Below are positions 25,601 through 36,223 of a DNA stretch of 39,240 bases, in pieces (the stretch's first letter is position 1; each line of letters opens with the position of its first letter). The DNA is from Candidatus Roizmanbacteria bacterium (lineage in GTDB: Bacteria > Patescibacteriota > Microgenomatia > UBA1406 > GWC2-37-13), in contig JACQCK010000005.1 of NCBI GenBank assembly GCA_016201695.1, positions 1 to 39,240 on the forward strand, read 5' to 3'. The notes under the pieces are model-generated. The model was not told the origin of the DNA. It saw only the letters and a list, made by a program, of their open reading frames with translations, and made no database searches. The translations under genes were made by a program, and so were the position numbers.

Positions 25601-26164
25601 ATGAAAACAGTGCACATTGTCCACGGATGGTATGGAAATCCTGACGGTGAGTGGAGACCGTGGCTTAAAAAAATTCTTCTTCAAAAAGGCTGGCGGGTCG
25701 AGATTCCGGCTATGCCAAACAGCAGAAAACCCGAGATGAACGCCTGGGTAAAACACTTGAAAAAAACTATTCCGGCTCCGGATAAAAATACCGTTCTCAT
25801 CGGTCACAGCCTGGGCGTCATCACTATTCTTCGCTATTTGGAGAGTTTAAAGCCGGCCGAGAAAATCGGCGCGGCGATCTTGATTGCCGGATTCAGTTAT
25901 GACTTGGAATATGACGGATATCATCAGGAACTGGGAACCTTTTTTAGGACGTCGGTCAATTTTGCCGCCGTTAAAAAACACTGCCATAACTTTACTGTCC
26001 TACATTCACAGGACGACCCCTGGGTGCCGATAAAGCACGCCTATCTTTTCCGGGAAAAACTGGGCGCTCGGATAATCATTCAAAACGGCATGAAGCATTA
26101 CAGCGGTGACGACGGCGTCTACTCCTTGCCTATCGTCGCCGAACTTCTTGAGACTATTTTCTAG
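25601..26164 (+). CDS. RBBP9/YdeN-type small serine hydrolase
   Basis: 187 residues from ATG 25601. Alpha/beta-hydrolase features: VHIVHGWYGNPDGEW (4-18), nucleophile elbow IGHSLG (67-72, Ser70), acid residue in SQDDPWVP (near 138), His in NGMKHYSGDDG (near 165). The compact size and HGWxGxPxxEW start are typical of the RBBP9/YdeN family of cytoplasmic hydrolases of unclear substrate. The longer start at 25577 lies upstream of the predicted transcript start, so 25601 is preferred. The stop shares CTAG with the convergent TMTC-like gene. Confidence 0.85.
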   Translation: MKTVHIVHGWYGNPDGEWRPWLKKILLQKGWRVEIPAMPNSRKPEMNAWVKHLKKTIPAPDKNTVLIGHSLGVITILRYLESLKPAEKIGAAILIAGFSYDLEYDGYHQELGTFFRTSVNFAAVKKHCHNFTVLHSQDDPWVPIKHAYLFREKLGARIIIQNGMKHYSGDDGVYSLPIVAELLETIF

Positions 26165-27798
26165 TGTTCTTCCTTAGCCCGCTTTAGACCTTGTTGTGCA
26201 ATCTGATTATCCGGCGCAAGCAGAACGGCCCTTTGGAAAGCGTCTTGTGCCGATTTTTTTTCGTTCAATCTTAAATAAATCACGCCAAGATTGATATAGA
26301 GTTCCGGCGCTTTGGGGTTAACCGCGATCGCTTTTAAGGTATAGTCTTTGGCCAGCTCAACCTTACCCGCCTGGTAATAAATGCCCCCGATATTCTGCAG
26401 CGACTTCCATAATTTTGGGTTAAGCTTAACTGCTTGCAAATACATGGTCAGTGCCTGTCTTAGCTGATGAAGACTGTGATAGTTGGCGGCCAAATCCTGA
26501 TAGACGTCGGCATAATTTGGCGCCAGGGTGGCGGTTTTTTCCAGTTCCAAGATGGCTTCTTTATACTTCGCCTGTCTCATGTAGATCGTCCCAACGTTAT
26601 AGTGGGTCTGAAAACTATACGGCGAATTTTTGACTTCGGCCAGCCAAAAACTCTCGTGTGTTTTCCAGTCGTTGTTCCGGACATACGTTCTTAGCGAAAG
26701 TAAAAGCAGGATGACTCCGAAAGCGACAGCTTTGATAAGCCCGTTTTTCAGCCAACGGCCGATCTTTTCCAAGACGATCGCCGCCGCAAAGAACAATCCA
26801 ATACTACCTAAGTACATATATCGTTCGGCAAACAACGAAGAAAGGCCCAACGGATTAAGCGTCACCGAAATCGCGATAAGAAAAAATCCCAGTCCGAAAA
26901 AAAGCAGCCGGTTTTTTTTATAAGCGATTGCAAGTATCGTAAAAAAAACCAGTGTCATCACGACGCGAACGATATATTCAGGAACGCCAATGACCTCGCT
27001 ATGATAAAGCGTCAGAATCGCCGGCCAGACAACCAGTTGGAGATAATAAGTAATCGCCACCGGAATTTGAAAAAAGGGATTGTACGCGGTTACTTTCTGA
27101 TAAAAATCGGTTGTAAATGCATTCGCTCGGCCCTGAATTCCGGCAATGACGATCGATCCGTATGCTAATGCAATGCCGAAGAAAGGGAGAAAACTCATCA
27201 GTATTTTTTTTCGCCGCCACTGTTTCGGCGGCGTAAACGCGAAGTGATATAAACCAACTAACGGCACCAGAACAAGTGCTTTTTCTGAAATCGAGGCGCT
27301 CAAAAGAAAGCAAACGACAGACAAAACAAAGGCAGCTCTTTTTTGCCGACGAAACCAAACGATATACACAACAAGCGACAGGAGAAGAAAAAAACTATAC
27401 AGCGGATACCCGCCGGCCGAAATCCAGGTCACCGCTTCGGTCAGTACCGGGTGAACGGCAAATAAGCTGGCGGCGACCAGAGCCAACAGTTCAGAGCTAA
27501 GAAGAAGTATTAAAATATAGATTAGGACCGTCGTTCCGACGTGAAAAAAGATACTGCTGAAGCGAAAGAAAAACGGCTGAATCCCGCCCAGTTTAAAAAT
27601 AAAAAAATCAAGAAGCGGTTTGGTCGCAAAAAGCGGGTGCTGCCAGACGACACGGATATTGCCAAGATCTTTGTTAAGAACTATTCCCAGATCGTCATCG
27701 GCGACAAAGGTATTATTGATAAAAGGCAGATACACAGCAAGGACCAGCGTCAAAAGAAATACCATACTGATACCGTGTTTTCTGATAAATTCTTTCAT
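26161..27798 (-). CDS. TMTC-like GT-C membrane protein with TPRs (copy 1)
   Basis: 545 residues. About ten membrane segments fill residues 1-375, then TPR repeats run from about 395 to 545 (for example YNVGTIYMRQAKYKEAILELEKTATLAPNY). Near the N-terminus, NNTFVADDDLGIVLNKDLGN carries the acidic pair expected of a GT-C glycosyltransferase; FAVHPVLTEAVTWISAGG and FAERYMYLGSIG match motifs of the TMTC/DUF1736 proteins, which in animals are O-mannosyltransferases using a lipid-linked sugar. A protein or surface glycan glycosyltransferase role is inferred. It overlaps the preceding paralogue by 4 bp (ATGA), so both are in one operon. Confidence 0.8.
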   Translation of the reverse strand: MKEFIRKHGISMVFLLTLVLAVYLPFINNTFVADDDLGIVLNKDLGNIRVVWQHPLFATKPLLDFFIFKLGGIQPFFFRFSSIFFHVGTTVLIYILILLLSSELLALVAASLFAVHPVLTEAVTWISAGGYPLYSFFLLLSLVVYIVWFRRQKRAAFVLSVVCFLLSASISEKALVLVPLVGLYHFAFTPPKQWRRKKILMSFLPFFGIALAYGSIVIAGIQGRANAFTTDFYQKVTAYNPFFQIPVAITYYLQLVVWPAILTLYHSEVIGVPEYIVRVVMTLVFFTILAIAYKKNRLLFFGLGFFLIAISVTLNPLGLSSLFAERYMYLGSIGLFFAAAIVLEKIGRWLKNGLIKAVAFGVILLLLSLRTYVRNNDWKTHESFWLAEVKNSPYSFQTHYNVGTIYMRQAKYKEAILELEKTATLAPNYADVYQDLAANYHSLHQLRQALTMYLQAVKLNPKLWKSLQNIGGIYYQAGKVELAKDYTLKAIAVNPKAPELYINLGVIYLRLNEKKSAQDAFQRAVLLAPDNQIAQQGLKRAKEEH

Positions 27799-29189
27799 GG
27801 CGAGATATTTAATATGGCATAAAGTCTCTTCATGTTTTCATACACGTGCTCTCGTCCCGGGTCAATTTGCAAAGCTTGCTTATAACTGAAAAACGCCAGA
27901 TCATACCGTTTATCCAAAAAATAGCTGTCGCCCAATTTTTCATGATACTCCGCGTTGGTCGGAAAAAGTTCAATCGCCTGCTTTAATTCATCCTGCGCCG
28001 ATTTGTAATTTTTTTCCTCCGAATAAACAGCCGCTAAATCAAGGTGTGGCTGGACACTCAACGGCGACTTACCGGCCGAGACTGCGGCAAATAGTTTTTG
28101 ATTTCGCCACTGTGAGTTTCGCCACTGACTGCCAACGCCAAGAACGACTATTAATCCGGTCAAAATCATAAGCGCCGACTGACGCATGAACCGACCGGTA
28201 AACCAATTTAGAAAATAACCGAGACAGGCAAATAGACCAACGCTCCCTAAATATACATATCTTTCCGCCAGAAACGTATTGACCCGAAAAGAAGTCAGCG
28301 TCGGAATAAGCGTGATAAGAAAAAAACCCAGCCAGAAAAAAATATATTTGTTTTTTTTAAACGAACCGACCAATACCGCCACAACTCCAAGAAACGCCGC
28401 CGCCCGGACTAGATACTCGCCAACTGATACCAGCTTAGTGTGATAAAGACTGATAAGAGTCGGGGAAAAAAACAGCTCCAGATAAGTCGTCACCGCGACC
28501 GGAATCCGAAAGAACGGATTATAATCAGTTACCTCTTGATAATTACTCCGAAACGATTCATACCGCCCGCCAACCCCGCCAAGAAATAACACCGTATAGA
28601 TAAGCGACAACAAGTAAAACGGCGCCAGTTTTCTAAACATATTTTTATTTTTTCCGAATACCATCTGCCATCCGGTCAAAACTAAAGGAAAAACAACTGC
28701 TTTTTCCGATGACAGTAAAGAAAGGATAAAAAAAAGGAGCGAAGCGATATAAAGCTTTCGTTTAGAAGAAGCGCTAATATATAGGTATAAAGCGGTAAGG
28801 AAAAAAAAAGAATACATCGGGTATGAGCCGGCAGAAATCCAGATCACGCTTTCGGTAACCAAAGGATGAACGGCGAAAAGGGCGGCGGCGAGGAAACCGA
28901 TGCGCTTAATTGTCAGTCTCGAAACCAGCAAAAATACCATCAGTACGCTTCCGGCGTGAAACATGACGCTGGGAAGGCGAAACCAAGCCGGGTTGTAACC
29001 GGCAAGATGATAAGTGAGATAGTACAGCAGTGGTCTTAAGAATGACAATTTCGCTTGAAGAACGGAAGAGAAATTACCAAGGCCCGGGTTGTGAAGAATT
29101 CCGGCAATGTCATCAGCGACAAACCCGTTCCCTAAAAAAGGCAGATAAATAATTCCGACCAGAAAAAGAAGAATTACGGAATATGACAT
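27795..29189 (-). CDS. TMTC-like GT-C membrane protein with TPRs (copy 2)
   Basis: 464 residues, the same family as copy 1. GNGFVADDIAGILHNPGLGN near residue 20, FAVHPLVTESVIWISAGSYPMYSF near 108, and TFLAERYVYLGSVGLF near 315 are the shared motifs. There is a multi-spanning region to about 370, then only about two TPRs (LAAVYSEEKNYKSAQDELKQ; LGDSYFLDKRYDLAFFSYKQ) to the end. The shorter TPR tail suggests a different partner or acceptor. Its promoter shares a -10 region with the divergent Nudix gene (TATAAT on the minus strand at 29212-29207). Confidence 0.8.
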   Translation of the reverse strand: MSYSVILLFLVGIIYLPFLGNGFVADDIAGILHNPGLGNFSSVLQAKLSFLRPLLYYLTYHLAGYNPAWFRLPSVMFHAGSVLMVFLLVSRLTIKRIGFLAAALFAVHPLVTESVIWISAGSYPMYSFFFLTALYLYISASSKRKLYIASLLFFILSLLSSEKAVVFPLVLTGWQMVFGKNKNMFRKLAPFYLLSLIYTVLFLGGVGGRYESFRSNYQEVTDYNPFFRIPVAVTTYLELFFSPTLISLYHTKLVSVGEYLVRAAAFLGVVAVLVGSFKKNKYIFFWLGFFLITLIPTLTSFRVNTFLAERYVYLGSVGLFACLGYFLNWFTGRFMRQSALMILTGLIVVLGVGSQWRNSQWRNQKLFAAVSAGKSPLSVQPHLDLAAVYSEEKNYKSAQDELKQAIELFPTNAEYHEKLGDSYFLDKRYDLAFFSYKQALQIDPGREHVYENMKRLYAILNISP

Positions 29190-29206
29190 ATGATATACTG
29201 AAAATC

Positions 29207-29214
29207 ATTATAAA
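29207..29214. promoter_or_regulatory. Shared divergent -10 region
   Basis: ATTATAAA reads TATAAT on the minus strand (29212-29207), for the TMTC-like gene starting at 29189, and TATAAA on the plus strand (29209-29214), for the Nudix gene starting at 29230. Confidence 0.4.
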
Positions 29215-29229
29215 GTAACTCTTCTTTTT

Positions 29230-29676
29230 ATGAAAGTCCGGACTGAAATCTCGGCCGGCGGCGTTGTCTATCAAAAAACCGCCGATAATACTCTCTGGTT
29301 GATTACACAACACTCGAAACATAAAGGATGGAGTTTTCCCAAGGGACTCGTTGGCGATACTGATAAAGGAGAAAAAAAAGAAACCGCGGCCGTCCGCGAA
29401 GTCGAAGAGGAAGGAGGTGTTAAGGCTAGAATAACCGACAAAGCTTCAGTTTCTGCACAATATAAATATAGATTCGGTGATTTTCTCGTAAGAAAAACGG
29501 TTCACTACTTTTTGATGGAGTATCTATCCGGTGACCCAAAAAATCATGATTGGGAAGTATCGGACGCAAAGTTTGTGAGCGAAGCGGAAGTCAAGAACAC
29601 GCTTTCTTTCCGGTCTGACAAAGACGCATTCAGTAAAATACTCAAGCTCTACAAAACGTTATGTACTCAATACTAG
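29230..29676 (+). CDS. Nudix hydrolase
   Basis: 148 residues, cytoplasmic. The Nudix box is complete: GDTDKGEKKETAAVREVEEE (42-61) then GG, matching Gx5Ex7REUxEExGU. The first strand ISAGGVVYQK and KGWSFPKGLV (32-41) are typical of the MutT/Ap4A-hydrolase branch. It would cleave a nucleoside diphosphate linked to another group; the exact substrate is unknown. The stop interlocks through CTAG with the convergent unknown gene. Confidence 0.88.
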   Translation: MKVRTEISAGGVVYQKTADNTLWLITQHSKHKGWSFPKGLVGDTDKGEKKETAAVREVEEEGGVKARITDKASVSAQYKYRFGDFLVRKTVHYFLMEYLSGDPKNHDWEVSDAKFVSEAEVKNTLSFRSDKDAFSKILKLYKTLCTQY

Positions 29677-30122
29677 AAATTACCGCTGGGAAAATAAGCA
29701 CGAACTGAAAATTTAGGATCTCGTAACTCAATCATCTCCTCACCGGAAGATATCAATAAAAAATGTGGCTTAGATAAATATTTTTCCTTAAATTTTTTAT
29801 AGTTTTTGACTTCAAAGTCAATGTAACCTCTCTCGGGATGGTCATCATCAAATACTCTGACACGACAATGGGATATTGTTATAGCAGATATTTTTAGAGG
29901 CTCCGTAAGTTTATAGTAATCACCAGATGATCGCTGTAAAGCTACCGTTCCATTATCTTTCAATTCTCTAGCAACGCTACTGAATTCTTCCTGAGTTTGA
30001 GCATAAATAGATACATAGTTTATGCCCTTTGCCAAATCCTCTTTATCCACGTTTAGAGAAACCATCTCTATCGCTTCAGAGGCAATATCGCTAAAAGTCG
30101 TACGAAGCCGTTCACTCAACAT
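29673..30122 (-). CDS. Unknown protein, 149 aa
   Basis: 149 residues, soluble, mixed alpha/beta. Features include an N-terminal helix (MLSERLRTTFSDIASEAIEMV), YVSIYAQTQEEFSSVARELKDNG (about 36-58) and ISHCRVRVFDDDHPERGYIDFEVKNYKKFKEKY (about 83-115). The alternation of strands and helices recalls a VOC- or ferredoxin-like fold, but the match is too weak to name. It sits between a Nudix gene and tRNA-Gly. A CATAAT box lies 4 nt upstream of the ATG. Confidence 0.55.
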   Translation of the reverse strand: MLSERLRTTFSDIASEAIEMVSLNVDKEDLAKGINYVSIYAQTQEEFSSVARELKDNGTVALQRSSGDYYKLTEPLKISAITISHCRVRVFDDDHPERGYIDFEVKNYKKFKEKYLSKPHFLLISSGEEMIELRDPKFSVRAYFPSGNF

Positions 30123-30169
30123 ATAAATTATGTAACTTCTTATGCATTTATAGTTACTTCTGTCATATT

Positions 30170-30244
30170 TGGAGCGGGCGAAGGGAATTGAACCCTCTGT
30201 CTTCTCCTTGGCAAGGAGACATTTTACCGGTAAACTACGCCCGC
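30170..30244 (-). tRNA. tRNA-Gly (GCC), CCA encoded
   Basis: On the minus strand GCGGGCG pairs with CGCCCGC; the anticodon loop is TTGCCAA with GCC; T-arm GAGGGTTCAATTCCCTT. TCCA follows the acceptor (30173-30170), so CCA is encoded. Confidence 0.93.
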
Positions 30245-30278
30245 ATCAAGAAGAATTATATCAGAAAACTCCGATCGT

Positions 30279-30307
30279 TTGACAACCCAGAACGAGCTAT
30301 TCATAAT
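30279..30307 (+). promoter_or_regulatory. Promoter of TMTC-like copy 3, leaderless GTG
   Basis: TTGACA (30279-30284), 17-bp spacer, CATAAT (30302-30307). The GTG at 30314 lies 6 nt after the -10 box, at the expected transcript start. It begins 35 bp past the 5' end of the divergent tRNA-Gly. Confidence 0.65.
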
Positions 30308-30313
30308 ATAGTT

Positions 30314-31900
30314 GTGTCCCTACTGCTTTTTATCCGCAACTGGCTGGCAAAAAACCGAAAATACCTAGTCGTTTTAATCGGAGTCACTTTTTTTGCCTAT
30401 TTCCAAACACTGCGAAACGGTTTTGTCGCCGACGATATCCGCGGTGTTCTAAAAAATAACGATCTTGGCAATTTCCGCCCGGTGTTGAGCCAACCGTTTT
30501 ATTTTGTTCAGCCGCTTCTTTATTATTTCCAGTATATTTTTTTTGACAAAAGTCCATTGGTCTTTCATCTCGACAACTTACTTTTTCATACGGCAAACGT
30601 GTTGGCGGTTTTTGCTCTGGCACAACATTTTGCCGGCAAACGGACGGCCTTTTTGACCGCACTGCTTTTTGCCGTTCACCCCCTTCTTTCCGAAGCGGTC
30701 ATTTACGTCTCGGCCGGCTCCTTTGTGAGGGCGACTTTTTTTCTCCTGACTGCCTGGCTGTTACACCTTGCTTTCCGCAAAAAAAAGATCGCCGCGTACC
30801 ATTATCTGGCTACCGGTCTATTTGTCCTGGCGGCCGCTTCATCAGTACAGGTGCTTGTCTTTCCCTTTATACTTGTACTGTACGAACTGCTTAAGAAAAA
30901 ATCGTCAAGAGAAATTCTGCTTACGACACGCCTTTTTTTTCTAATAAGTTTTATTTGGGGAAGTAAGCTGGCTTTTTCTGTTCCCGCCCGGCTCCGCGAT
31001 TTGAACATGCTTTCTCCCCAACCCTCGGTTTTTTACTATCCTTGGTTACAGATTCCGTACGCAGTCTCGACCTACCTCAAGTTATTCTTGTCTCCGTTAG
31101 TCTTGACGATTAATTATCAGGCTTTTGACAACGCTTCGCTTATGTCGTTTTTCTTGACAATTATATTCATCGCCAGTTTGGTCGTCGCTTTTTTCAAAAA
31201 TAAGACTATCTTTTTCTTTCTCCTTTCTTTCCCTCTTATGCTTAGCCCCACCTTACTGCCGGTTCGTCTCGCTTCGGTTGTCGCCGAGCGCTATTTTTAT
31301 CCCGCCGCCTTCGGCCTGTGTTTTATTGCCGGATATTTTTTTGACTCTTTTATCAGCCTCCATAATTTAACGGCCAAACTAACTTTTGTATTGCTGGTAA
31401 TTCTTTTGGCTGATCGAACCGGTATGCGAACCCGCGACTGGCAAAACGAACATATCTTTTGGACAAAAACAGTTAACGCCTCACCGCTTAGTTTTGCCGG
31501 CCACTATCAGCTCGCCAAGGTATACTTCGCCGAAAACAACTATGAGGACGCAAAAACCGAGCTGGAAACGGTCATCCGCCTGGCCCCCCGTTTCGCCAGC
31601 GCCTATGAAGATTTAGGACTTGTTTATGAAAAATTTGCCGACAATGCCAGGGCCTATCTCCTTTACCTGACCGCGCTATCCTTAAACCAATCGCTGATAA
31701 AGTCACCGCAAAATATTTCTTCTCTCCTCTATCGTCGCGGCAATCTGTCCGAGGCAGAGCGATATGCGCGAATCGCCCTAAGCAACAGTCCGAACTCACC
31801 CGATCTTTTACGTAATCTGGCAACAATCCTTTTCAAGGAAAATAAAGTCGGGGAAGCCCAAGCGCTTCTTTTCCGAACCGCAACTATCGCTGTTCCTTAA
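30314..31900 (+). CDS. TMTC-like GT-C membrane protein with TPRs (copy 3)
   Basis: 528 residues from GTG 30314. The open frame runs back through tRNA-Gly to 30188, but that start would put the coding region inside an antisense tRNA and before the promoter. Shared family motifs: RNGFVADDIRGVLKNNDLGN (near 31-50), FAVHPLLSEAVIYVSAGSF (about 120) and VVAERYFYPAAFGL (about 325). Membrane segments extend to about 380; about four TPRs (LAKVYFAENNYEDAKTELE onward) follow. It would transfer a lipid-linked sugar, as inferred for the paralogues. It diverges most in the second motif (YVSAGSFVRATF). Confidence 0.75.
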   Translation: MSLLLFIRNWLAKNRKYLVVLIGVTFFAYFQTLRNGFVADDIRGVLKNNDLGNFRPVLSQPFYFVQPLLYYFQYIFFDKSPLVFHLDNLLFHTANVLAVFALAQHFAGKRTAFLTALLFAVHPLLSEAVIYVSAGSFVRATFFLLTAWLLHLAFRKKKIAAYHYLATGLFVLAAASSVQVLVFPFILVLYELLKKKSSREILLTTRLFFLISFIWGSKLAFSVPARLRDLNMLSPQPSVFYYPWLQIPYAVSTYLKLFLSPLVLTINYQAFDNASLMSFFLTIIFIASLVVAFFKNKTIFFFLLSFPLMLSPTLLPVRLASVVAERYFYPAAFGLCFIAGYFFDSFISLHNLTAKLTFVLLVILLADRTGMRTRDWQNEHIFWTKTVNASPLSFAGHYQLAKVYFAENNYEDAKTELETVIRLAPRFASAYEDLGLVYEKFADNARAYLLYLTALSLNQSLIKSPQNISSLLYRRGNLSEAERYARIALSNSPNSPDLLRNLATILFKENKVGEAQALLFRTATIAVP

Positions 31901-31978: not shown

Positions 31979-32051
31979 GCCGAGGTAGCCAAGGCGGTCA
32001 CGGCGGAGGTCTGAAAAACCCCAGATGTCAGTTCGATTCTGACCCTCGGCA
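31979..32051 (+). tRNA. tRNA-Phe (GAA)
   Basis: Acceptor arms GCCGAGG and CCTCGGC (32044-32050), discriminator A. The anticodon loop CTGAAAA (32011-32017) gives GAA at 32013-32015. The T-arm is GTCAG-TTCGATT-CTGAC. The anticodon stem has one mismatch (A opposite C). CCA is not encoded. Confidence 0.85.
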
Positions 32052-32176
32052 CAAAGCGATAACCACCAGCTTTCATTATTTATGAACTTATTTGCTATGC
32101 AAAAAGATTTTATAAAACCTTTAATTTGGAAAGAAATCGATAGAATAAAATATCTACCCGAAGCGGGACAAATATG

Positions 32177-32248
32177 TGCGTCCGCTTGGGGTCGAACCAA
32201 GGACATCCACTTTATAAGAGTGGCGCTCTACCGCTGAGCTACGGACGC
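32177..32248 (-). tRNA. tRNA-Ile (TAT)
   Basis: On the minus strand GCGTCCG pairs with CGGACGC. The anticodon stem CCACT/AGTGG holds CTTATAA with anticodon TAT, reading AUA. The T-arm is CTTGG-TTCGACC-CCAAG. CCA is not encoded. Confidence 0.9.
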
Positions 32249-32375
32249 GTAATAATATCTTGTCACTTACCTTCCTTATTTCAAACCGATTATAGTTCAA
32301 TACGTCGCTACAATCAAACGGTGAGAAAGTCTGACACTGTGGTAAATATCGGCTTAATTTAAATATATTTCTCGC

Positions 32376-34382
32376 TTAAGCCAACGACCGGGGTTTCCTA
32401 CCGGTAATTAGTTCGTATTCTTGGGCAAACTTACCATCGCTATCTAACGCTTCAGCGACCTGTAAAAATGAATGTACCGGCTCCTGCCGCAATTTCTCAA
32501 TAATCGGCCGTATGACTAAACGTTGTGTATCAGGTAACTTATTTATATAATTGCCAACTATACTGTGATTATCATCCTCACCAAGAAATTTTGCCACATC
32601 TTTTGTTGTCTTACTTTTTCTTTCTATAGGATTGTTAGGCAGATCGTTATTAAAGTAACCAACATCATAAAGGGCGATTCGCGGAGGGTACTGATCAGGA
32701 GAAAAACCAGCCAGATTTTGAGTCCTCGCTGACTGATAATTAGGGTTATCCTTTGCTAAATCCACATGTGAAATACCATAATAATGGTACGCCTGAAGTA
32801 CCATAAATATTTGAAACAAAACGCGCTTATGATCTTCCAAACTGCATAAATCAAGCTGATCACCCCGCCCTTCCTCCATCAGTACTGCGACTTGACCTGA
32901 TTCTAATAAATAGGGATCAGAAACAGCTACGGCAAATTCAGCTATTCCCGGTAAGCGCGCCGCTATGCTTTCGTGTATAACTGCTTCTGAACGCGTTGTA
33001 TTTCCGCCTTCTTCATTCGGCTTTGAAATCTTAGCAAATAGACGAGAAGAAACGCGTCTGCCTTTATTAGTAGAAAGCCGATGTGCGCTAGACACATCAC
33101 CGACAAAGGCAACAATCGACTGTGTGCCTTTCAAAAATACCGGCTCTTTCACTCGACTAAGTAATTTAGCTATTTCCGCTTCGGGCAGAATATCATTTAA
33201 ACTCTTTTTTAAAGAAACTTTTTTAAGACTGTCTCGACGCGGATCGGCTGGTTCCAATTTGTGTCTGATATGGGGCAGAGCCGCTTCTCTTTGTCCGTCA
33301 GGTAAACTGTCAAAAGGTACTTCGGAAAAGGTGGTTTCTTGACGTAACCGATCACTTGCCGCAATAATATCATTGTAGGCGGCTTGACTTATCAATCCGG
33401 CCGACAGAAACATTGCTAATGTTCGGCTATCATCACCGTCTAATTGTCTTCCGCTAAAATCTCTGAGCATGGCTTTGTCTCCTTCAGAATAATCCGGTCG
33501 CACAGGAATAGACGGTTGAGTCTGTTCAATTGTCGGCGGACCGCCGGTTTTAGCCGGGACACCGGCCGTTCGTGACTCATCAGATAATAGTGCCCGCTTA
33601 GCTGCCGCATAAACGGTTTCATCAAATTCAGTATCAATATATGCCCCTCCTACTCCTACAGTAAAGTTGGCCTTACGTGCTGCTATGTCAGCAACAACTT
33701 TTTTATTACGTTGTGCCGGTTCGCCGAAAATGAATTGAGGCGTTTTTTTACCGTCTTTGTCTACAATTTCCCATAGCATTACTCCTTTTTTGGCACGATC
33801 ATCAATATTACGAGCGCTAATTAATACAAATGTTCGCCCTTTATATTCAATTTTTTTCATATTAGAAGAAAGCACGCCCGATTGGATAAACTTTGTTAGA
33901 TCTTGCTTAAGGTTAGGTGAAACGATATAAACCTGATTTCTTTGTTCGGAAGGAGCGCAACCTGATTTTACCGCCTCATCATCCAAAAAAATTACTCCAT
34001 TTACAGGATTGATGTAACGTTTTTTGAAATCAATCCGTGAACCGGCTTGTGCTGACTGTACATAAAGACTGGTATTGTCTGATAAGGTACACGCTCCTTG
34101 GAATCTTTGAATTGAAGCGGAAGCCTCATTTTCTAATTTAATAGTTCCGTTATTTTCGCTTATCTCTCCATTTGTAGAAGACTGCAATACGGTCTCACCG
34201 TTATTCATCCCCAGTATCGCCCGCGGTCCATAAACTGTCAACCTCACTCCTTTTGGCACTTCCCCAACTGTTACACTTTTATCAGCCACTCCGACATACG
34301 TAATATTCCCGTCCAGACGACCTAATGTTAGTGACTTAGTAAATACATCTTCTCTTTTTTCAGGAGAAGGATTAGCTGACAT
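32376..34382 (-). CDS. Beta-rich protein fused to a kinase-like domain
   Basis: 668 residues. The N-terminal 110 residues have short repeating beta strands (GNITYVGVADKSVTVGEV, GVRLTVYGPRAILGM, GETVLQSSTNGEISENNGTIKLENEASASI), like a FapA/bactofilin-type beta-helix. A middle region of about 300 residues has no recognised fold. Residues about 425-668 look like a protein-kinase-type domain: RLFAKISKP (ATP Lys), HESIAARLPG (helix C Glu), a catalytic-loop motif HVDLAKDN (His539, Asp541, Asn546) and LYDVGYF (metal Asp573). There is no signal peptide. No G-loop is seen clearly, so activity is uncertain. Function unknown. TAAAAT ends 7 nt before the ATG. Confidence 0.65.
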   Translation of the reverse strand: MSANPSPEKREDVFTKSLTLGRLDGNITYVGVADKSVTVGEVPKGVRLTVYGPRAILGMNNGETVLQSSTNGEISENNGTIKLENEASASIQRFQGACTLSDNTSLYVQSAQAGSRIDFKKRYINPVNGVIFLDDEAVKSGCAPSEQRNQVYIVSPNLKQDLTKFIQSGVLSSNMKKIEYKGRTFVLISARNIDDRAKKGVMLWEIVDKDGKKTPQFIFGEPAQRNKKVVADIAARKANFTVGVGGAYIDTEFDETVYAAAKRALLSDESRTAGVPAKTGGPPTIEQTQPSIPVRPDYSEGDKAMLRDFSGRQLDGDDSRTLAMFLSAGLISQAAYNDIIAASDRLRQETTFSEVPFDSLPDGQREAALPHIRHKLEPADPRRDSLKKVSLKKSLNDILPEAEIAKLLSRVKEPVFLKGTQSIVAFVGDVSSAHRLSTNKGRRVSSRLFAKISKPNEEGGNTTRSEAVIHESIAARLPGIAEFAVAVSDPYLLESGQVAVLMEEGRGDQLDLCSLEDHKRVLFQIFMVLQAYHYYGISHVDLAKDNPNYQSARTQNLAGFSPDQYPPRIALYDVGYFNNDLPNNPIERKSKTTKDVAKFLGEDDNHSIVGNYINKLPDTQRLVIRPIIEKLRQEPVHSFLQVAEALDSDGKFAQEYELITGRKPRSLA

Positions 34383-34449
34383 ATTGTATATTTTATCATT
34401 ATTTTTTTACTGGTTTTTTCCTCTTCTTTTTGGTAATTAATTTCTGGTA

Positions 34450-34965
34450 TTATTTTTCGCTGATTATATCTTTTGAGGATGTGAGCCGATCAAGAAAAAT
34501 GACTCCCTCCAAATGATCATACTCATGTTGAAAGATACGGGCAACAAAATCAGTAAATTCCCGTTCGATTGACTTTCCGGTACGCGTTGAGTAACGGACT
34601 TTCACAACTTTATGACGGGGAACAAGCGCTCGTATTCCAGGAACGCTCAAGCAGCCCTCCCAATCTTTTTTCTTATCTTTTGACCGATATATAATTGTAG
34701 GGTTGATTACGGCTGTGGGCTTCATTGTAGGCGCGTTTGGATAACGCGGGTTGGGATGTGAAGCGATAATAAATAAACGTATCGGTTGATAGACCTGCGG
34801 TGCCGCAATGCCTACTCCATCGGCATCCATAACAGTAGCTATCAGGTCGTCAATAAGACTTTGTAGACGAGGATCATCAACATTTTTTACTTCTTGCGCT
34901 TTTTCTCTTAAGACCGGATGCCCGAGTTGTGCAATTTGCAGAAATACGCCGTTTTGTTTTTTCAT
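34450..34965 (-). CDS. def: Peptide deformylase
   Basis: 171 residues. It removes the formyl group from the N-terminal Met of new proteins and uses a bound metal ion. All three motifs are intact: GVGIAAPQV (about 51-59), EGCLSVPG (about 103-110, metal-binding Cys) and QHEYDHLEG (about 145-153, two metal-binding His and catalytic Glu). The protein is of normal family length. It is downstream of tRNA-Ala on the same strand, 10 nt from the tRNA 3' end. Confidence 0.96.
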   Translation of the reverse strand: MKKQNGVFLQIAQLGHPVLREKAQEVKNVDDPRLQSLIDDLIATVMDADGVGIAAPQVYQPIRLFIIASHPNPRYPNAPTMKPTAVINPTIIYRSKDKKKDWEGCLSVPGIRALVPRHKVVKVRYSTRTGKSIEREFTDFVARIFQHEYDHLEGVIFLDRLTSSKDIISEK

Positions 34966-34974
34966 AAGTTACGG

Positions 34975-35046
34975 TGGACCGGAGGAGACTTGAACTCCCA
35001 ACCCCTGCAATGCGAATGCAGTGCGCTACCATTGCGCCACCGGCCC
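34975..35046 (-). tRNA. tRNA-Ala (CGC)
   Basis: Minus-strand acceptor arms GGGCCGG and CCGGTCC, with one G-U pair. The anticodon stem CTGCA/TGCAG holds TTCGCAT with anticodon CGC. The T-arm is GGGAG-TTCAAGT-CTCCT. Discriminator A; the next bases read CCG, so CCA is not encoded. Confidence 0.9.
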
Positions 35047-35055
35047 GGTGCTCGT

Positions 35056-35280
35056 TTATGGAAAATGTTTGAAAAAAGAACAGTTGCAAACTTCTTTGTT
35101 CCCGCAGAAGAAAGCAAGTATGCCGTTATGTCGTTCCATTACTTGATGACCTGATTGTCCTTTAGGTGGATATTCACACACTTTTCTAAAGTTCAATTTA
35201 CCGTAAAAATCCTTTATGATATTGAAATCGGGTACATGAATTTCAATGATTATATCTGATAGAGAAGCGTTTTTAGACAT
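35056..35280 (-). pseudogene. Truncated VOC-family protein
   Basis: 74 residues containing only the first module of a VOC protein: IIIEIHVPDFNIIKDFYGKL (about 10-29) and GHQVMERHNGILAFFCGN (about 44-61). The frame ends at a TAA just 9 nt before the 5' end of tRNA-Ala. Full members have two modules and about 120-140 residues, so the C-terminal half is gone. It begins 3 nt after the stop of the methyltransferase gene on the same strand. A short single-module functional form is less likely. Confidence 0.55.
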
Positions 35281-35283
35281 ATT

Positions 35284-36012
35284 TTATTTAGTCGCTGTCA
35301 TTAACGTATATTGCCATGGCATTTTAGCTAATTTTCCCGCAGCAAAATCATCTTGCAGTCTCGCGATTCCTTCCTGAAAACTTTTTTTGTCTATAAAACC
35401 CAATACAGAGTGCGATTTTGTTCTTACTTGATTCATAATTGCTTCGTCCATGGCGACTGGATCAGACAAAGTCTCGGTTTCAAATTTTGAAAAACCAGCC
35501 TCTCTTGCTGCTTTTTCTATTTTTACTAATGAATGATATCTTGCCAAATCAACTTCTAACACGCCAGGAAAGTAAACTGAGGTAAATTTTACTCGTAGGT
35601 CATTTTCTGTTTCTGTCCCGATCAACAAAACTCCACCATCCGTTAAGTGATGATTTGAATTTGCAATAAAAAACTGTGGCCGTTTGAGATGATGTAGTAA
35701 ATCGTGGGCATAAATACAAGGAAAAATTCTATCAAAGGGAAATTCTTTGTCTAAATCTGCTATTCGAAGTTCAGAAGCACAATCTTTTACTTTTGCTTTT
35801 GCCAACATATCATCTGATTTGTCACAACCATAACCTCTAAATCCAGAACGTCTATAAATTTCTAAAAGATCATGTCCAGTTCCACAACCAGCATCAAGGA
35901 AATTATTGCTTTTTATGTGGCTTAGAAAAAAATCTACGACACCCGTATATGCTTTCCTGTGTTCTTCATAAGCTGTTGCCTCTTTCCCGCCATGAGTATA
36001 AGAATTATCCAT
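35284..36012 (-). CDS. SAM-dependent class I methyltransferase
   Basis: 242 residues, cytoplasmic. Motif I is FLDAGCGTGHDLLE (about 38-51), which binds S-adenosylmethionine. GYGCDKSDDMLAKAK (about 61-75) carries the acidic ribose-binding residue, and CIYAHDLLHHLKRPQFF (about 99-115) is the post-motif region typical of UbiE/Coq5-like enzymes. The substrate is unknown. It lies upstream of the truncated VOC gene; tRNA-Arg is further upstream. Confidence 0.85.
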   Translation of the reverse strand: MDNSYTHGGKEATAYEEHRKAYTGVVDFFLSHIKSNNFLDAGCGTGHDLLEIYRRSGFRGYGCDKSDDMLAKAKVKDCASELRIADLDKEFPFDRIFPCIYAHDLLHHLKRPQFFIANSNHHLTDGGVLLIGTETENDLRVKFTSVYFPGVLEVDLARYHSLVKIEKAAREAGFSKFETETLSDPVAMDEAIMNQVRTKSHSVLGFIDKKSFQEGIARLQDDFAAGKLAKMPWQYTLMTATK

Positions 36013-36087
36013 ATTTTCAGTTTAATTATACAAGTTTTAAGACTTTTAGAGAGGCCTAAAGTTGAACCGATATTGTTTCCTCTTGCA

Positions 36088-36119
36088 GCGCTCGCATCGG
36101 GCGGCGGCGTTGCGAGCGC
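36088..36119. repeat. GC-rich inverted repeat between genes
   Basis: Arms GCGCTCGCA (36088-36096) and TGCGAGCGC (36111-36119), perfect 9-bp pairing, around a GC-rich loop. No T-run follows on either strand, so a terminator is doubtful. The GC content is well above the surrounding intergenic DNA. Confidence 0.5.
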
Positions 36120-36148
36120 CGCACCCAACGATTTCGCCATTTCCCAAA

Positions 36149-36223
36149 TGGTGCGCCTGGAGGGAATCGAACCCCCATCAAAGGCTCCGGAAGCCCTTAT
36201 TCTATCCATTGAACTACAAGCGC
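36149..36223 (-). tRNA. tRNA-Arg (CCG), CCA encoded
   Basis: Minus-strand GCGCTTG pairs with CAGGCGC, including a G-U pair. The anticodon loop TTCCGGA gives CCG. The T-arm is GGGGG-TTCGATT-CCCTC. Discriminator A and CCA (36151-36149) are encoded. Confidence 0.92.

Follow-up and report, generated by a model that had tools for sequence, protein, structure and literature searches.

A probable divergent protein-kinase-like domain joined to a repeat-containing N-terminus in an accessory gene of a Candidatus Roizmanbacteria bacterium

Within the protein-kinase-like superfamily, some families perform chemistry other than phosphorylation, such as AMPylation and polyglutamylation, and the glycine-rich loop is not universal among its members. 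Many protein-kinase-like families are missing from standard domain databases: KINtaro lists 72, of which 32 are not recognised as such elsewhere (PMC10870513). Unrecognised superfamily members are thus common, which tempers the surprise of the case described here, a 668-aa protein encoded in a 39,240-nucleotide stretch of DNA from a Candidatus Roizmanbacteria bacterium (the window).

Three described groups offer points of comparison. Like the Hanks Ser/Thr kinases (PF00069), the 668-aa protein carries a beta3 Lys, an HxDLxxxN motif and a DxG motif, in that order and at roughly the right spacing; unlike them, it has no glycine-rich loop and no APE or DxWxxG motif, and ~14 extra residues separate its catalytic loop from the DxG. 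The ABC1/ADCK/UbiB atypical kinases, which occur in the relatives at three loci (L050, L051 and L052), resemble it in a catalytic-loop Asp and Asn and in VAVKIQRP, superficially similar to LFAKISKP, but their KxGQ and HADPHPGN motifs are absent from the window protein. We rejected a link to ABC1, as those motifs are missing and hhalign against the three proteins gave a probability of 0.3%. The third group, PF24078 (the second beta-solenoid region of PIC/HAP1/IgA0), resembles the window protein's N-terminus in what look like short, regularly spaced beta rungs with much G/N/S/T. The window region differs in scoring under the curated cut-off, in lacking a secretion signal and passenger context, and in having 17-residue rungs with only about three clear copies.

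The gene lies on the minus strand between a peptide deformylase gene and a tRNA gene.

34450..34965, minus strand (same strand as the 668-aa gene): peptide deformylase, upstream neighbour (PF01327, E 7.4e-52)
32376..34382, minus strand: gene of the 668-aa protein, an intact ORF with gene-like codon-position composition, missing at the equivalent junction in three relatives
32176..32248, minus strand: tRNA-Ile(TAT), downstream neighbour, adjoining the deformylase in relatives without the 668-aa gene

The ORF starts with ATG and contains no internal stops. Its G+C content by codon position (GC1 0.545, GC2 0.404, GC3 0.316) follows the pattern typical of a real gene, and overall it equals that of the window (42.2% vs 41.8%). 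We compared the family members in which an orthologous deformylase (65-72% identical) stands beside these tRNAs, namely genomes G006, G035 and G059. In each, tRNA-Ile follows the deformylase within ~20-50 nt and tRNA-Phe comes next, with no intervening gene. The 668-aa gene is therefore an accessory gene, an extra ~2 kb at this junction. Its ATG lies 16 nt past the relic of the deformylase's former C-terminal coding tail. No convincing direct repeats that would mark mobile-element borders were found at its ends, and none of the ten scanned neighbours encodes an integrase. Since inspection of the protein start (MSANPSPEKREDVFTKS) revealed no evident signal peptide, we read the product as cytoplasmic.

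Several further observations concern this part of the window and its counterparts. At 34399-34452, the window deformylase stops at TAA where the relatives have GAG and 9-13 further codons (EYQKLMKRQMSKK in G035); past the window's stop, the former tail remains readable (YQKLITKKKRKKPVKK, then TAA). The surrounding tRNA-Arg / tRNA-Ala / deformylase / tRNA-Ile / tRNA-Phe block (31979-36223) resembles an insertion hotspot: in the window, a methyltransferase gene separates tRNA-Arg from tRNA-Ala and the 668-aa gene follows the deformylase, while in G006 the interval from tRNA-Ala to the deformylase is occupied instead by a Nudix-like gene and one for a 624-aa protein of secreted appearance. G059 has a tRNA-Ile(TAT) gene (L038:1276-1451, minus strand) that is split at its anticodon loop (CTTA^TAA). 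The 104-nt insert contains, as its body, an entire second tRNA-Ile(TAT) (1332-1404), and its two ends can pair with each other. With the insert removed, ARAGORN accepts the 72 nt left over as tRNA-Ile(TAT). This tRNA nested within a tRNA, seen in a single MAG, may reflect either a genuine intron-like arrangement or a quirk of assembly. Close together at 26161-31900 lie genes for three multi-pass membrane proteins (545, 464 and 570 aa), each with TPRs at the C-terminus; one matches PMT_2 glycosyltransferases, and the three are probably paralogous O-mannosyltransferase-like proteins. Because a minus-strand tRNA-Gly (30170-30244) shares ~57 bases with the beginning of the 570-aa ORF as called from TTG (30188-31900), that gene probably has its true start further downstream.

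The initial annotation, made from the sequence, had described a C-terminal domain with the motifs HVDLAKDN and YDVG and no clear glycine-rich loop. Both statements hold for the window protein. The following features were assigned to this domain.

32394..33152, minus strand: divergent protein-kinase-like domain, residues ~411-663, homologous to residues ~34-286 of a Candidatus Daviesbacteria protein; its PDB profile matches are kinases only, with a negative reversed control
33030..33032, minus strand: K451, candidate beta3 ATP-binding lysine (LFAKISKP), kept in the relative (LLKVAKPG)
32745..32768, minus strand: HVDLAKDN catalytic-loop motif, residues 539-546 (D541, K544, N546); the relative keeps D541 and K544 but not H539, and its Asn is shifted
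32658..32669, minus strand: YDVG metal-binding motif, residues 572-575 (D573), within YPPRIALYDVG; the relative keeps D573 and YPPRI and has Ala for Gly

The protein thus carries H539, D541, N546, D573 and G575. The pattern H.D[LIVM]...N followed at a suitable distance by D.G arose in 5 of 200,000 shuffles of the protein (2.5e-5), and among the other window ORFs longer than 60 aa none has the pair. While the motifs themselves had been noticed correctly, the initial annotation missed K451 and the 27-residue stretch from N546 to D573, which is unusually long for the step from catalytic loop to DxG and is common to the relative; in PKA the same stretch takes about 13 residues. In the ~95 residues past D573, inspection of the translation found neither APE nor DxWxxG, and the segment past the DxG is short. 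The absence of a glycine-rich loop counts against normal ATP handling more than against the fold.

The remainder of the protein divides into a repeat region and a middle part.

34023..34334, minus strand: beta-solenoid-like N-terminal region, residues ~17-120 (17-residue repeat; sub-threshold PF24078; G+N+S+T 38%)
34053..34205, minus strand: three 17-residue repeat units, residues 60-76, 77-93 and 94-110 (self-match)
33588..33995, minus strand: region without family match, residues 130-265 (no Pfam match, no credible PDB match, no relatives)
33486..33587, minus strand: Pro/Ala/Ser/Thr-rich stretch, residues 266-299 (composition)
33198..33485, minus strand: probably helical region, residues 300-395 (no Pfam match; helices from a low-confidence model)

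In an ungapped self-match of residues 17-125, the best lag was 17 with a score of 43; the 95th percentile of shuffles was 31, and none of 500 reached 43. The consecutive units in residues 60-110 read NNGETVLQSSTNGEISE / NNGTIKLENEASASIQR / FQGACTLSDNTSLYVQS, and no repeats occur elsewhere in the protein. Scanned alone against Pfam, the region matched the beta-solenoid PF24078 at E 0.0053 (17 bits; cut-off 27). The repeat-like beta region that had been proposed is borne out by these results, and the N-terminus is likely, although not proven, to be a short beta-solenoid. The middle (residues 130-395), originally left without assignment, has indeed no Pfam match and no credible PDB match. Its composition suggests a flexible linker at residues 266-299, and the low-confidence model indicates that residues 300-395 are probably helical.

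The protein as a whole had no above-threshold match in Pfam, NCBIfam, PHROG or PADLOC at E-values up to 10, in agreement with the original view that no named family fits. The sub-threshold matches were limited to AcaB/TIGR03761 (E 0.009-0.14), an ECF sigma model (E 0.16) and PF24078. AcaB/TIGR03761 was rejected as a chance match, confined to one helix and far under its cut-off. PF00069 did not match the protein at any reported E-value, a PDB search with the single sequence returned nothing, and the literature library searched held nothing on the protein or on bacterial solenoid-kinase fusions. Across the host genome, no PF00069 kinase was detected at E<=0.001. Separately, one relative's bin (G046, contig C93) contains a full MAP-kinase-like frame (L049:126-992; best PDB match E 5e-110 to MAPK) that is open only if TAA encodes an amino acid (6 TAA); it is apparently a ciliate contig contaminating a bacterial bin.

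Relatives were sought in several hundred genomes of Patescibacteria, for a total of 1,895 genome-searches whose sets overlap. The family of the host (72 genomes), its order (83) and two draws of ~370 genomes from its class yielded a single relative, and two draws of ~380 genomes from the phylum yielded no credible one. A peptide-pattern scan of an 84,980-species collection, which reaches near relatives only, recovered the same protein, and viral contigs, phages and plasmids held none. Weak matches at L003, L005, L008, L009 and L010 were dropped because they fall in unrelated reading frames, are interrupted by stops or concern proteins of another kind; that at L009, for instance, leads to an unrelated metallo-hydrolase-like protein.

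The relative is a 487-aa protein from a Candidatus Daviesbacteria MAG (JAUSKZ010000041.1; L006:3629-5092), found at E 1.5e-8 in the search of its own genome. Similarity is confined to the C-terminal ~250 residues of the window protein, with 28% identity over 195 residues and a pairwise E of 5e-12. In Smith-Waterman comparisons with 1000 shuffles, the kinase-like region scored z 22.7, whereas residues 1-384 scored z 0.8. The two proteins share the kinase-like domain, the insert before the DxG, YPPRI and a C-terminal GKF..EY..I.G motif; the Daviesbacteria protein differs in having neither solenoid nor middle, its kinase domain being N-terminal and followed by ~190 unlike residues. Its gene also has other neighbours (a transglutaminase-like protein and UvrA), which are unrelated, and gene context therefore gives no function. 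The joining of a beta region to a divergent kinase domain, as initially described, is thus supported by the window sequence but not shared by the one relative, which has the kinase-like domain only. Because the relative lacks this architecture, the solenoid-kinase combination is, as far as the sequences compared indicate, not conserved and known from one gene.

Conservation of the motif residues, whose absence across homologues the initial annotation had named as refuting its reading, was partial. The alignment pairs LFAKISKP (K451) with LLKVAKPG, D541 with the Asp of SPADVGKN, and YPPRIALYDVG with YPPRIILFDLA. The Lys and two Asp (K451, D541 and D573) are therefore kept in both proteins, but in the relative the HxD His is replaced by Pro, the loop Asn is shifted and the DxG Gly is replaced by Ala. 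Conversely, the Daviesbacteria protein carries a good glycine-rich loop, GFGASANVY, ahead of LLKVAKPG, at the place where this element is missing from the window protein, so that each protein is without a different accessory motif. Catalysis is accordingly uncertain for both: one has no glycine loop, and the other is missing the HxD His and the DxG Gly. These losses, together with the absence of a clear conserved helix-C Glu, would suit a pseudokinase, a kinase-like fold that has lost phosphotransfer and, together with the solenoid, works in binding or as a scaffold, in a family that tolerates the loss of catalytic motifs. We regard this as unlikely but a serious prospect, given that the most important charged residues, K451, D541 and D573, persist in both proteins and that the window protein also retains H539, N546 and G575.

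The two sequences were joined in one profile for comparison with known folds. Searched against 177,635 distinct PDB sequences, this profile returned 28 chains at E<=10, all 28 of them protein kinases (best E 0.049), although many of the matches rest on ~40-60 residues near the catalytic loop and the ULK/CHK2 entries, being redundant, do not count as independent. The chains are kinases of several kinds, 9emy, ULK1/2/3, CK2, CHK2, CaMK1 and SRK2E among them, and align through helix E and the catalytic loop; the ULK1 matches span profile positions 52-189. The reversed profile gave one match, to a non-kinase, at E 0.37. None of the matches is individually significant, but they amount to good collective evidence for a kinase-like fold. 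hhalign against one MAPK was weak (probability 1%, E 0.05), though the right segment was aligned. The 27-residue stretch and the lack of APE and DxWxxG point to an atypical protein-kinase-like domain rather than a PF00069 member. Structure prediction, one of the checks initially proposed, was run with AlphaFold2 on one and on two sequences and failed because there are too few homologues (pLDDT 34 and 38, both models unusable). A Foldseek search with the second model found no match, and given the failed prediction it carries no weight. With no family matched and both models failed, we infer the kinase fold from the sequence.

The same results bear on whether the domain is a kinase at all. A helical domain of another fold in which HVDLAKDN and YDVG occur by chance would accord with the absence of family-level and fold-level confirmation and with the other weak matches in the same helix (TIGR03761/AcaB, E 0.009-0.14). 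We consider this improbable in view of the paired-motif frequency in shuffles (2.5e-5), the retention of K, D and D in a 28%-identical relative that bears its own glycine-rich loop, and the profile search, in which 28 of 28 PDB matches were kinases, none a known non-kinase fold, and the reversed control was clean. A small-molecule kinase of the same superfamily, acting on a sugar, lipid, nucleoside or antibiotic, would account for the short post-DxG segment without APE, as is usual in aminoglycoside-phosphotransferase-like kinases, and for a genome with no recognisable PF00069 and hence no other sign of signalling by protein kinases. Against it, no small-molecule kinase in Pfam or NCBIfam matched at E<=10, the PDB profile matches are protein kinases only, and fusion to a solenoid better suits a macromolecular partner. 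Such an enzyme thus appears decidedly improbable, and nothing specific emerged for the lipid or sugar kinase that had originally been suggested.

We see about an even chance that the 668-aa protein, an accessory product of one Microgenomates-type (Patescibacteria) lineage, is instead a soluble, atypical protein-kinase-like phosphotransferase, or a transferase of another ATP-derived group, on a solenoid docking scaffold. The C-terminal domain would be a highly divergent superfamily member that binds ATP-Mg via K451, N546 and D573, and D541 would act as catalytic base in the transfer of phosphate or possibly another ATP-derived group. The putative beta-solenoid would dock the enzyme to a partner or oligomerise it, thereby choosing the substrate. 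The sequences directly show the intact gene, the repeat, the homology of the C-terminal domain to one other protein, the retention of the Lys and two Asp, and the lack of the gene at this junction in relatives; besides the fold, we infer ATP binding, catalysis, a protein substrate and the docking role. A bolder reading, which we hold to be rather unlikely, is that the two proteins found a very rare family of active protein-kinase-like enzymes, present only in scattered Microgenomates-type bacteria; here it would be solenoid-fused accessory cargo, perhaps directed at a partner protein of a host or phage, in a genome without a recognisable Hanks kinase.

The 668-aa protein lies outside all libraries searched and may represent a variant within the protein-kinase-like superfamily, possibly a new small branch. 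A two-member family outside these libraries, in a reduced-genome lineage in which no Hanks kinase was found, would be such a branch. Even a pseudokinase would still contribute a scaffold architecture that did not appear in any library searched. The family would offer a concrete candidate for regulation of the kinase type, or for the manipulation of a partner, in Patescibacteria.
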